DNA of 55,447 nt, taken from positions 1-55,447 of the forward strand of contig CABXXT010000009.1 in NCBI GenBank assembly GCA_902516285.1. The letters are read 5' to 3'. Every line of letters starts with the position of its first letter. The stretch's first letter is position 1. The DNA comes from an uncultured SAR86 cluster bacterium. Its GTDB lineage: Bacteria > Pseudomonadota > Gammaproteobacteria > Magnimaribacterales > D2472. This document shows, piece after piece, positions 51,901 to 55,447 of the stretch. Under the pieces are notes generated by a model. That model did no database searches. It was not told the DNA's origin and was given only the letters and a program-made list of their open reading frames with translations. The position numbers were made by a program, and so were the translations under genes.

Positions 51901-52458
51901 TTAAACTGCTTCAGATATTACTTCTTTATCTTCAATGTCAACAATATCAGGAAGCTGAGGCAGATCCGAGATATTTTTCATATCAAGATCATCAAGGAAA
52001 TTTTTTGTTGTAACATATAAAGCTGGCCGTCCTGGAACATCTCTGTAACCAGATACTTTTATCCAATTTCTTTCTAACAATGTTCTTATGCTTCTAGTAC
52101 TGACTGTGACACCCCTGATGTCCTCGATATCTCCTCTTGTGACAGGTTGTTTATATGCAATAATTGATATAGTTTCCATTAAAGCTTTAGAAATTCTCGG
52201 AGTTTTGTCGCTCCATAAATGTCCAATGCTTGAACTATGCTCTTCTTTAATTTGAATTCTATACCCTGATGCTACTTCCTTTATTTCAATTGAAGTATCT
52301 TTATATCTATCTTCAAGAACATTTATTGATTTTTTTATTTCAGACAATTCAATACTCATTCCGTCACTTTCAAGTATGCCTCTTAATTCAGATAACCTAA
52401 TTGGTCTAGCTGCTCCATACAAAATTGCTTCAATACTATTAATAATTTTAAGATTCAA
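51901..52458 (-). CDS. scpB: segregation and condensation protein B
   Basis: Kleisin-interacting subunit of the SMC-ScpAB complex; 185 residues with two winged-helix domains. Family blocks: SIEAILYGAARPIRLSELRGIL (about 7-28), GYRIQI, RISKALMETISIIAYKQPVTRGDIEDIRGVTVS (about 90-122) and the GRPALYVTTKNFLDDL segment. Overlaps scpA by 11 nt. The presence of ScpAB implies an SMC protein rather than (or beside) MukBEF, as in many non-enteric gammaproteobacteria. Confidence 0.95.
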   Translation of the reverse strand: MNLKIINSIEAILYGAARPIRLSELRGILESDGMSIELSEIKKSINVLEDRYKDTSIEIKEVASGYRIQIKEEHSSSIGHLWSDKTPRISKALMETISIIAYKQPVTRGDIEDIRGVTVSTRSIRTLLERNWIKVSGYRDVPGRPALYVTTKNFLDDLDMKNISDLPQLPDIVDIEDKEVISEAV

Positions 52459-53254
52459 AACTCGAGCTCCTTTTGGACTTAATGAATAACTCTTCGCTTC
52501 TATTTTGAATTAGATCAATATATCCATCTTTTGCTAATTCAAGAGATGCTAGCAAGGTAACAACTACTCCTTTTTTGCCCTCTGATTTTCTTAAAGTTTT
52601 TGAAAAGCTAAGTATTTTATTTTCTTTTAAAAATTCTAAGATTATCTGAATTCTTTCTTGAGTAGAGAGCTCCTCAAAATCAATTAAGTGATTCGATTTA
52701 TAGTTTGGCCTATTAAGTACTTCTTTAATTGTTGATATAAGCTCGTGTTCTGAGATTGTGAATTTTTTCTTCTCAAGGGTTTCAACATCAGGAATTTGTG
52801 CAGATGCAATATAAAAATCTCTATCAACCAATGGGAGTATTGCAATTTTTTCAGCAACTGACTTATATCTTTGATATTCCTGTAATCTTCTTATTAGTTC
52901 AGCTCTCGGATCATCTTCATATTCTTCAGATGACTCCTTTGGTAGCATTAATCTTGACTTGATTTCAGCTAATGTTGCTGCCATTACTAAATAATCTGCA
53001 GCAAGTTCAAATTTTAAAGAATCAACCATCTCAATATACTCAAGATATTGATCTGTGATAGTCGAAATATTTAAATCTAAAATATTAATATTCTCTTTTC
53101 TTATAAGGTATAGCAAAAGATCCATTGGGCCTGAAAAAGATTCTAGACAAAGCTCAAGTGCATTAGGGGGTATGAAGAGGTCCTCTGGCAAACTATCAAA
53201 TTGTTTTCCCAAGATGGTCGGAAGTTCTGACTGTACAGGACTAATATTTTGCAT
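52448..53254 (-). CDS. scpA: segregation and condensation protein A (kleisin)
   Basis: Kleisin closing the SMC ring; about 268 residues from ATG 53254. A TTG at 53263 would add only three residues and is less likely. The family start is typical: LCLESFSGPMDLLLYLIRKENINILDLNISTITDQYLEYI, then DYLVMAATLAEIKSRLMLP; acidic middle; and the C-terminal winged helix (VVVTLLASLELAKDGYIDLIQN). It overlaps scpB by 11 nt and is divergent from the DAHP synthase gene. Confidence 0.95.
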   Translation of the reverse strand: MQNISPVQSELPTILGKQFDSLPEDLFIPPNALELCLESFSGPMDLLLYLIRKENINILDLNISTITDQYLEYIEMVDSLKFELAADYLVMAATLAEIKSRLMLPKESSEEYEDDPRAELIRRLQEYQRYKSVAEKIAILPLVDRDFYIASAQIPDVETLEKKKFTISEHELISTIKEVLNRPNYKSNHLIDFEELSTQERIQIILEFLKENKILSFSKTLRKSEGKKGVVVTLLASLELAKDGYIDLIQNRSEELFIKSKRSSSFES

Positions 53255-53259
53255 AAAAC

Positions 53260-53427
53260 ACAATATAATGTTATTTGAGTATATATTAATACAATATATT
53301 GTGTATTTCCTTAAAAAAATGTTTTTATATCAAGTTTTATTGAAGTAAGAATTTTCAATAATTTGTTTATATTATCTTGCTTTCATTTAATAATAAGCAT
53401 CCACTAGTAATTTTAAATTTTAAAAAT
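53260..53427. promoter_or_regulatory. divergent intergenic region with two similar palindromic boxes
   Basis: Between scpA (leftward) and aroG (rightward). ACAATATATTGT at 53292-53303 is a perfect 12-bp palindrome. A near copy, ACAATATAATGT (11 of 12 the same), is at 53260-53271, centred 32 bp away (about three helical turns) and just ahead of the scpA ATG. They could be operator sites, or only AT-rich promoter -10 elements (one contains TATAAT). No recognisable TyrR or TrpR site. Confidence 0.35.
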
Positions 53428-54477
53428 ATGAATTATTCGACAGATAATACAAGAATCATTGATCGTAGAAAGGTCCCTGCTCCCTATGAGCTTGTGAATA
53501 AATTTCCAATTAATGATGAAATTGCAAAACTTGTATACGGAACAAGAAATGAAATAAGTCAAATTTTGCATGGGAAAGATGATCGTCTTTTTGTTGTCGT
53601 TGGACCTTGTTCGATTCATGATCCAGAAAGTGCAATCGAATATGCCACTAAGCTTGCGGAACAAAATTCAAGATTAAAAGAAAATTTGCTCATAATTATG
53701 AGAGTATATTTTGAAAAACCTAGAACAACTGTAGGCTGGAAAGGATTAATTAATGATCCAGATATAAATGAAACATACGATATAGCTAAAGGAGTTGAAA
53801 TGGCAAGGAAACTTCTTATTGAAATTGCTAATCTAAAACTTCCTGCAGGAACTGAATTTTTAGATCCCATATCACCACAATATGTCACAGATATAATATC
53901 TTGGGGTGCAATTGGTGCAAGAACTGCAGAAAGTCAGATTCATAGAGAGTTAGCGTCAGGCTTGTCCTGTCCCATAGGTATTAAGAATGGGACTAATGGT
54001 GGACTTAAAGCTGCTATAGATGGAATCCAAGCTGCAAATCATTCACATGTTTTCCTGGGAGCAACAAAAGAGGCTGATATTGCTATGCTTAAAACAGCTG
54101 GGAATCATGACTCACATATTATTTTACGTGGAGGAAAAAATCCTAATTATGACCAGCAATCTGTTGAGGCTACTTTGACTGCTTTGAGAGAAGCAGATGT
54201 AAATGAATCTATTATGATAGATGCTAGTCATGGAAATAGTCAGAAAAAATTTAAACAACAAATTCCTGTAATTGAAAATATTTCAGAACAAATAAAGCTT
54301 GGTGATAAGAATATTAAGGGGATAATGATTGAAAGTCATTTAAATGAAGGTAATCAAAAAATATCAGACAATTTAACATATGGGCAAAGCATCACTGATG
54401 CGTGCATGGGTTGGGAAGATACAGTTAACTGTTTAAACAAACTAAATGATGCTGTTATAGAAAGAAGGAGTAGGTAA
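53428..54477 (+). CDS. aroG: 3-deoxy-7-phosphoheptulonate (DAHP) synthase, class I
   Basis: First enzyme of the shikimate pathway. The ATG at 53428 gives 349 residues beginning MNYSTDNTRIIDRRKVPAP, matching the AroG/F/H N-terminus; an upstream in-frame ATG at 53377 would add 17 residues with no family counterpart. Blocks: VVVGPCSIHDPESAIEYA, IIMRVYFEKPRTTVGWKGLINDP, AGTEFLDPISPQYV, SGLSCPIGIKNGTNG, HIILRGGKNPNY and IDASHGNSQKK with metal ligands Cys, His, Glu and Asp. Which aromatic amino acid inhibits it cannot be read. It is 3 nt before the DnaT-like gene. Confidence 0.95.
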   Translation: MNYSTDNTRIIDRRKVPAPYELVNKFPINDEIAKLVYGTRNEISQILHGKDDRLFVVVGPCSIHDPESAIEYATKLAEQNSRLKENLLIIMRVYFEKPRTTVGWKGLINDPDINETYDIAKGVEMARKLLIEIANLKLPAGTEFLDPISPQYVTDIISWGAIGARTAESQIHRELASGLSCPIGIKNGTNGGLKAAIDGIQAANHSHVFLGATKEADIAMLKTAGNHDSHIILRGGKNPNYDQQSVEATLTALREADVNESIMIDASHGNSQKKFKQQIPVIENISEQIKLGDKNIKGIMIESHLNEGNQKISDNLTYGQSITDACMGWEDTVNCLNKLNDAVIERRSR

Positions 54478-54480
54478 GTA

Positions 54481-55272
54481 TTGTCAAAAAGTAAACTCTC
54501 TTTTTCTTCAGAAGTAGCTGAAACCCTTGGATTACATTGCGCAATTGTCCTAGATTTTTATGAAAAAGAAAATTTTAATAAAATCTCCTCAAGTAATGAA
54601 CTTACAAATCAACTTGCAAAACATATCAGTTTTATAGACGAAGGCTCTTTAGCTAAGTCAATTAATAAATTAGTAAAATATAAATTTATTAATTTTGAGA
54701 ACAAAAAAAGTAATCATAATTATGAGGTTAAGGAACCAACTTCGAATAAAACCTTTTCTAGACTTTCACAAGATTGGATGCCCTCAAAAGAAAGTTTAGA
54801 CATAATTAAAATGACAAAAATTAGTAAAGAGTTTTTAGATATTAAGTTAAAAGAATTTAAAGTATATTGGATAGAAAGAGCGCAACAAAGAAACAATTGG
54901 AATATCACATTTATTGATTTTATTAGAAGGGAATGGGCAAAAGAATCCAGTTCTAATAAGGGTTTGCCATTTTCTATTGATGAAAGATGGTATCCAGGTG
55001 AAGAAGTATTTGATATTCTTGAATTGTCAAATATATCAAAAGATTCTGCGTTAAAATACTTAAGAGAGTTCATCCTTTATTGGAAAGATAATGGATCAGC
55101 ATTCACTACATGGAATTCAAAGTACATTGAACATGTTAAAAGAAGATATACTCACAAATACATAGATAATAATGAAAAAAGTACAAAACATTCTGAACCA
55201 GGTAAATACTCGAAAGCATTCAACGAAAGGAAAGAAGATGATTCATGGGCAAAAGAAATTAAATTCGACTAA
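54481..55272 (+). CDS. protein with two tandem DnaT-type domains
   Basis: 263 residues. The N-terminal about 85 residues look like a winged-helix replication-protein domain (LGLHCAIVLDFY, SLAKSINKLVKYKFINFE). Two clear copies of the DnaT C-terminal-type domain follow: residues 97-152 (DWMPSKESLDIIKMTKI... ending FIRREW) and 168-223 (RWYPGEEVFDILELSNI... ending HVKRRY). Each has the W-x-P start and the Trp/basic end. The start is a TTG with a good AAGGAG (54465-54470). DnaT helps load the replicative helicase during restart. The next gene resembles phage lambda P, so this is probably half of a helicase-loading pair. Confidence 0.8.
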   Translation: MSKSKLSFSSEVAETLGLHCAIVLDFYEKENFNKISSSNELTNQLAKHISFIDEGSLAKSINKLVKYKFINFENKKSNHNYEVKEPTSNKTFSRLSQDWMPSKESLDIIKMTKISKEFLDIKLKEFKVYWIERAQQRNNWNITFIDFIRREWAKESSSNKGLPFSIDERWYPGEEVFDILELSNISKDSALKYLREFILYWKDNGSAFTTWNSKYIEHVKRRYTHKYIDNNEKSTKHSEPGKYSKAFNERKEDDSWAKEIKFD

Positions 55273-55447
55273 AGAAGAGTTTATAAAAACTATAGATCTT
55301 TTGTTTCTTAAGCTTGAGCTAGCCTATCATTATCAGTTTTATAAGGTTTTTGGAACTGACGAAAGATTGAGTGAAGGAAAAAAAATTTGGGCTACTAGTT
55401 TGAAGAATATTGATAACGAGGTAATTATAAAAGCTGTGGAAGATGTA
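55238..55447 (+). CDS. lambda P-like helicase loader (3' end outside window)
   Basis: First 70 residues of a protein that runs off the right edge, starting MIHGQKKLNSTKEEF. The ATG at 55238 has an AAAGGAAAG Shine-Dalgarno-like run and overlaps the DnaT-like gene by 35 nt, showing translational coupling. The stretch FYKVFGTDERLSEGKKIW followed by a short helix has the feel of the lambda P family (Trp after a basic helix, then a second helix). The resemblance is partial and read by eye; a DnaC-type or unrelated protein is possible. Confidence 0.5.
   Translation, partial: MIHGQKKLNSTKEEFIKTIDLLFLKLELAYHYQFYKVFGTDERLSEGKKIWATSLKNIDNEVIIKAVEDV

Follow-up and report, generated by a model that had tools for sequence, protein, structure and literature searches.

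How bacteria without DnaC load their replicative helicase is an unsettled question, and it is raised by two genes at the right-hand end of a 55,447-nucleotide contig from an uncultured SAR86 cluster bacterium. The window, by which we mean this whole stretch, ends with a gene for a protein carrying DnaT repeats and the overlapping start of a gene for a protein resembling lambda P (hereafter P). The original prediction saw in the pair a possible chromosomal helicase loader. That reading is supported by the homology of P, the conserved chromosomal slot, and the lack of detectable DciA in the order; the loader function itself we infer from homology, context and the lack of alternatives. The explanation that we consider probable as a whole is that SAR86 has a chromosomal helicase-loader pair of the DopC/DopE kind in place of DciA, with P reduced in the genus g224 and in two (f2 and f4) of the four families f1 to f4.

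The upstream protein had been described as two DnaT-type domains behind a winged-helix-like N-terminus. The domains are confirmed by a Pfam scan, in which PF17948 matches over two stretches (E 2.3e-32, 111 bits); the curated cut-off of this family is 25 bits, so the protein belongs among DnaT-domain proteins. When the predicted model is compared with the PDB, the match of the second domain to solved DnaT (Table 1) extends over 66-67 residues. At the N-terminus the AlphaFold2 model (pLDDT 78, pTM 0.40) has four helices, in residues 10-66, and in the PDB this part is matched best by the DNA-binding regulators Zur (Z 5.0) and Fur (Z 4.5). The helices and these weak matches agree with the description, and a winged helix as such is plausible from the model. 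Relatives of the protein are present in 51 of 60 SAR86-order genomes searched. The tandem of DnaT domains, which had been taken for unusual, is the usual state in this family, and three domains are found in a Litorivivens protein (L145), in G062 and G100, both outside the order, and in one f2 member. The Pfam scan detects the DciA domain (PF05258) in neither protein of the pair. Close to the C-terminus lies a WA motif, present within the last 25 residues at 101 of 104 P-carrying loci (some genomes enter this count twice) and in 0 of 26 P-less proteins, whose last 25 residues are largely the new tail discussed below. Further inward, the P-less proteins of f2 have SSW, or SW and then another residue, and those of f4 mostly have no W.

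Table 1. Features of the helicase-loader candidate locus in the window
Feature	Coordinates	Strand	Basis
DnaT-repeat protein (DopC-like), 263 aa, TTG start	54481..55272	+	PF17948
N-terminal helical domain, residues 10-66, possibly winged helix	54508..54678	+	AlphaFold2
DnaT domain 1	54760..54957	+	PF17948
DnaT domain 2	54970..55155	+	PF17948; solved DnaT, Z 8.7
DDSWA near C-terminus of DnaT protein; predicted contact with N domain of P	55237..55251	+	
Lambda-P-like protein (DopE-like), start only, 92 aa open ORF	55172..55447	+	phrog_109 via intact copy L003
DAHP synthase, constant upstream neighbour in SAR86-type loci	53377..54477	+	PF00793, E 3.9e-93
ScpA, chromosomal neighbour	52448..53263	-	PF02616, E 1.9e-25
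ScpB, chromosomal neighbour	51901..52458	-	PF04079, E 1.4e-48

The P ORF, read from an ATG at 55172, lies in another frame than the DnaT ORF, shares 101 nt with it and is truncated where the contig ends, at base 55447. An intact copy of 215 aa is available from G029 (L003), whose upstream protein is 97% identical to that of the window. This copy matches the phrog_109 profile, 'P-like helicase loader', with residues 5-186 aligned to positions 2-194 of 236 (E 1.7e-15). With PF06992 (Phage_lambda_P), SAR86 P gives E 4.8e-5 and 23.6 bits, under the cut-off of 26 bits; by sequence it is P-like without counting as a PF06992 member. The related protein in L145 exceeds the PF06992 cut-off with 34.5 bits. 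The AlphaFold2 model of G029 P (44 sequences; pLDDT 76, pTM 0.46) is helical throughout; its linker at 193-197 is of low confidence, and the C-terminal helix spans 203-212. The closest solved fold is DnaB-bound lambda P (Z 10.6, rmsd 6.0, 158 residues aligned), followed by the helicase loader G39P (Z 9.1, rmsd 1.7, 67 aligned), both values falling in the range about which the fold-comparison tool warns for helical bundles; the next rows have Z of 5.9 or less. For a second lambda P chain the alignment covers residues 117-215 and so takes in the tail, though only at Z 6.7 and rmsd 7.5. A sequence search of solved structures gave no match for P0003, and G39P at E 0.13 with alignment A1. The completed protein, checked against the chance that it belongs to an unrelated family, is thus P-like by profile, predicted fold and gene order, as had been expected from its first residues.

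The P ORF comes after the DnaT ORF in 31 of 31 loci kept, two of which are the window itself, and in all 31 an ATG is found 101 nt inside the upstream gene (98 in L031). A second ATG near -38 is common, and the position of the start is our choice among the candidate ATGs. In one f3 lineage (L106-L113), P has no ATG or GTG near the start, and a TTG within the last part of the DnaT gene would suit, as viewed in three loci. The median dN/dS of P is 0.123 (29 usable of 36 pairs), which by sequence places P under purifying selection, though dS is saturated (median 2.2).

The chromosomal setting of the pair recurs as well. The order DAHP synthase, DnaT protein, P where present, and a membrane-fusion gene is found across the SAR86 order, the last gene having been read in a subset of SAR86 loci. 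A scan of named genomes with the P alignment confirmed 124 loci, of which 80 were kept and sorted by gene content into 66 of SAR86 type (most of them bearing the title 'SAR86 cluster bacterium') and 14 others, whose titles give Cellvibrionales (4), Pseudomonadales (2), Spongiibacteraceae (1), Litorivivens lipolytica (1) or, for six, unclassified Gammaproteobacteria. A DnaT-protein match adjoins P in 77 of the 80. L138 starts at the P gene, and the non-SAR86 loci L144 and L150 have a good P match with no DnaT-protein match beside it. Of the 66 SAR86-type loci, 64 have DAHP synthase immediately upstream and two are situated at contig edges; the gene has no match in the 14 non-SAR86 loci, some with little upstream sequence. 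In six of these 14, dnaB is found at most about 1.1 kb from P (two checked by Pfam). The slot of DAHP synthase, a three-domain DnaT protein and P is shared by G100, a genome of 3.2 Mb (L098:3451-4011). In L156 and L164 the DnaT gene is split into overlapping frames, possibly by sequencing errors, and so is DAHP synthase in L156.

Other loaders were sought in the same order. DciA (PF05258) is detected in 0 of 60 SAR86-order genomes and in 232 of 276 genomes of the class, four of which belong to the SAR86 order. This detection rate disfavours a DciA missed through divergence, a very divergent DciA being formally possible. PF01695, the domain family of DnaC and DnaI, matches in 58 of the 60 genomes. 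The matching ORFs are of 389-518 aa, about 770-809 aa, 415-442 aa and 316-333 aa, with short partial matches in one ORF of 230 aa and one frame with stops. Those of 389-518 aa lie at about base 500 in five single-contig genomes and are taken for dnaA. We read the set, by size and place and not by identity, as DnaA, Lon, ClpX and other AAA+ proteins; by this assignment no DnaC/DnaI-like ORF was recognised in the 60 genomes. The presence of a canonical dciA or dnaC and a prophage location, which together would have told against the original prediction, were looked for: DciA is undetected, PF01695 matches only ORFs sized like DnaA or other AAA+ proteins, and the pair lies outside any prophage.

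The DnaT gene, in turn, is nearly universal in the order, being found in 102 of the 116 genomes with a completeness of 80% or more, and in 39 of the 40 with 90% or more. A DAHP synthase match was obtained in 0 of the 14 genomes without it, in a search that held no positive genome, the positives coming from another program and from loci of all four families. An assembly gap is therefore likelier than a real loss of the DnaT gene in the 14. One of them, G044, is a single contig and 93% complete.

The original prediction called for co-occurrence of the pair across the clade, and this holds in part. Of the genomes that carry the DnaT gene, 50 of 50 in f1 and 25 of 25 in f3 have P, as against 0 of 18 in f2 and 0 of 9 in f4 (counts tallied by hand from tables). 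In G024, a further f1 genome, P stands at the start of a contig, with no DnaT gene. Relocation of P elsewhere in f2 and f4 was considered and dropped, since whole-genome searches with P profiles found none. Instead, a P-like C-terminal motif ends the DnaT protein in all 26 P-less proteins read (17 of the 18 in f2 and 9 of 9 in f4). This motif is LxxL[RK]xK[HY]xI; for example, the DnaT protein of G038 ends with NIKDLRKKYKI and G029 P with LFEKLRKKYKI. A partial step is seen in the f1 genus g224, in which six of seven genomes have a P match: here the ORF is of 145-151 aa and comprises the N domain and the tail, without the WSHP body. Outside the order, P of G062 is shortened, with a tail-like stretch off the very end (only E 0.22), and P of G100 ends without a recognisable tail. 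In our reading P has been repeatedly reduced to a helicase-binding tail, which would have reached f2 and f4 by gene fusion. This erosion of P, and the two families with the tail of P on the DnaT protein, are new relative to the first reading of the locus.

The number of such events was approached with a tree made from DnaB and DAHP synthase (32 rows, 804 columns). Its topology is ((f2,f3),(f1,f4)), and every family forms one side of a branch with 100% bootstrap. A single clade of f2 and f4 is rejected (p-AU 0.000743), and hence two separate fusions, in f2 and in f4, would be needed on this sequence tree. Four changes of P state are required in all, counting G062; the branches of G062 and G100 are long, and G044 was not counted. 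In a tree of P itself, for which 6 of 9 prophage-like candidates had been dropped beforehand (15 bits or less with three queries), 18 of 19 chromosomal P proteins stand apart from phage P with weak support (64/98), and G100 lies among the phages. One clade of all chromosomal P, such as a single domestication would give, is not rejected by the test (p-AU 0.517).

Capture of the tail from P has to be weighed with convergence, or with a motif ancestral to the DnaT protein, because with 11 residues the motif is short, and K and L are frequent in it. With a matrix made from the last 11 residues of 18 distinct f1 P tails, every one of the 26 P-less proteins scores higher than all 740 C-termini of the background (ORFs of at least 150 aa from the loci, many of them mutually related), and 88 of 88 DnaT control proteins with P fall far below the fused tails, none coming near. 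When the 17 distinct fused tails are shuffled, 0 to 1.5% of 5000 shuffles score as high as observed. Matrices from other sources recognise few fusions, as convergence would have it: that from f3 tails places 4 of 11 f2 and 0 of 9 f4 proteins above the background maximum, and that from Cellvibrionales-type tails 1 of 11 and 3 of 9. The latter matrix is a weak test, since of genuine P tails it accepts just 5 of the 32 from f1 and 0 of the 39 from f3. With a local profile of 24 tail residues the fusions likewise score weakly (best E 0.0067; median 6.5; two of the 20 above E 100). The f2 tails fit those of the sister family f3 better than the f4 tails do. The convergent or ancestral origin leaves aside, however, that the tail is present exactly where P is missing, at the exact C-terminus, and in genes that otherwise overlap P. 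We regard it as unlikely, and capture from P as the preferred account.

As to the pair as a whole, it might be part of a prophage or a decaying phage remnant, since phages and other genomes of the class also carry P-like genes. The same slot between housekeeping genes across the order leads us to reject a prophage origin and bears out the domestication that the original prediction had read from the neighbouring genes; the low dN/dS of P and the near-universal presence of the DnaT gene leave the phage account hardly credible. A further rival is a role confined to replication restart, with SAR86 DnaB loading itself at oriC or doing so via DnaA. In E. coli, DnaT acts with PriA in replication restart, and DnaT domains are known from the restart primosome. 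Small genomes can, moreover, be without both dciA and dnaC/I, as stated in a passage of PMC5109545. The near-universal presence in the order, the P-type loader partner and the dnaB neighbour in 6 of 14 non-SAR86 loci nevertheless fit a general loader better, and restriction to restart seems improbable to us.

For a general loader, the following scheme is proposed. The DnaT protein would be the DNA-binding adaptor, bringing single-stranded DNA by way of its helical N-terminus and DnaT repeats. The prediction is that the WA motif at its C-terminus holds the N domain of P and that the extreme C-terminal helix of P latches onto the site of DnaB formed by the linker helix and docking helix (LH-DH). 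The complex of DnaB and lambda P offers a precedent, since the lasso-like segment of each P puts a helix on a site of the DnaB linker helix and CTD (an excerpt of PMC6391071); in the same excerpt the direction of the P chain, with the C-terminus last, is given as tentative, and cross-linking was used to test it. The LH-DH module is also the site of DnaC, lambda P and DciA, according to a portion of PMC9912922. In this way the pair would bring DnaB to single-stranded DNA at oriC or at restarted forks, taking the place of DciA in SAR86. In g224 the body of P would have been lost with the N domain and tail remaining; in f2 and f4 P would have been lost and the tail motif ends the DnaT protein, so that the predicted loader would be of one piece and lack the part for cracking the ring of DnaB. 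Loss of the body, or of all except the tail, would thus leave a docking-only loader. Every protein contact in the scheme, the loading and the essentiality of the pair we infer from the observations above. We lean cautiously towards the more specific claim that in two SAR86 families, with a partial step in g224, a phage loader has been stripped towards its DnaB-binding C-terminal helix, yielding a one-protein loader with neither AAA+ motor, DciA fold nor ring-cracking body.

DnaB itself differs among the families. The conserved Trp of its docking helix (W294 of E. coli DnaB, by alignment) is kept in 7 of 7 f2 and 4 of 5 f4 proteins and in two of Cellvibrionales type, and is absent from f1 (0 of 10), f3 (0 of 5), G062 and G100 (DnaB genes L227-L254). 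The pattern may bear on the docking of P or of the fused tail.

If the pair works in this manner, a highly abundant marine group uses a phage-derived loader, and the lineages would represent an evolutionary deletion series of that loader, from full P by way of N domain and tail to the tail only. The last state would imply that docking to LH-DH and binding of single-stranded DNA are enough to load a bacterial replicative helicase, a testable claim on the minimum needed for loading that parallels DciA. Our literature search found no publication joining SAR86 with DciA or 'helicase loader', and no description of the reduction of P or of tail capture, the content of Brezellec et al. 2017 being outside its scope.

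Among known systems, the SAR86 pair fits the DopC/DopE kind. DopC and DopE are said to be domesticated lambda O/P-type genes proposed as loaders in other bacteria, and loading of DnaB by DopE was reportedly expected and not demonstrated. The proposal, which the original prediction had mentioned, is in print: a part of PMC13326638 names DopE and cites Brezellec et al. 2017 (Genome Biol Evol 9:1561). Cellvibrionales without both dciA and dnaC/I were reported in 2016 by the same group (a passage of PMC5109545). The likeness lies in paired chromosomal genes, one of them derived from lambda P (here by phrog_109, E 1.7e-15, and a conserved slot), in hosts with neither dciA nor recognised dnaC/dnaI, and P with DnaT-repeat genes is found here in Cellvibrionales and Litorivivens records too. 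The differences are that SAR86 is a carrier as well, and that two SAR86 families are without the body of P and have its tail at the end of the DnaT protein.

With the O/P pairs of phages lambda and PAJU2, the SAR86 pair shares P homology and genes that overlap or abut. Lambda P reads PL...KIAEIKAKF near its end, which by eye resembles the SAR86 tails. Phage O proteins have PF04492 and no DnaT domain, whereas the DopC-like protein has DnaT repeats and gives no PF04492 match at E 0.1; with PAJU2 O it shares an SWA ending, and a derivation from lambda O is a possibility. PAJU2 O (L257:1692-2501) ends NDTSWA and a prophage-like DnaT-domain protein (L099, G295) ends QDTSW, both upstream of P. In Marinomonas phage P12026 (L258), a replication initiator without a DnaT or PF04492 match, a P-like protein and a DnaB-like helicase are consecutive in an operon. 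In E. coli, DnaT and a loader gene are neighbours. The DnaT domain is common to both systems, but DnaC is an AAA+ protein, whereas the SAR86 partner is P-like and no DnaC-like ORF was recognised. G39P of phage SPP1 (PDB 1no1) resembles the N domain of P in fold (Z 9.1, rmsd 1.7, 67 residues), with a sequence match of just E 0.13; unlike G39P, SAR86 P possesses, besides this domain, a lambda-P-like body and a tail that is conserved. DciA is an unrelated protein, with PF05258 in 0 of 60 order genomes, yet it works in the manner predicted for the f2 and f4 protein, being a loader without AAA+ that is aimed at the LH-DH module of DnaB and, in the crystal, leaves the canonical DnaB structure unchanged (a portion of PMC9912922).
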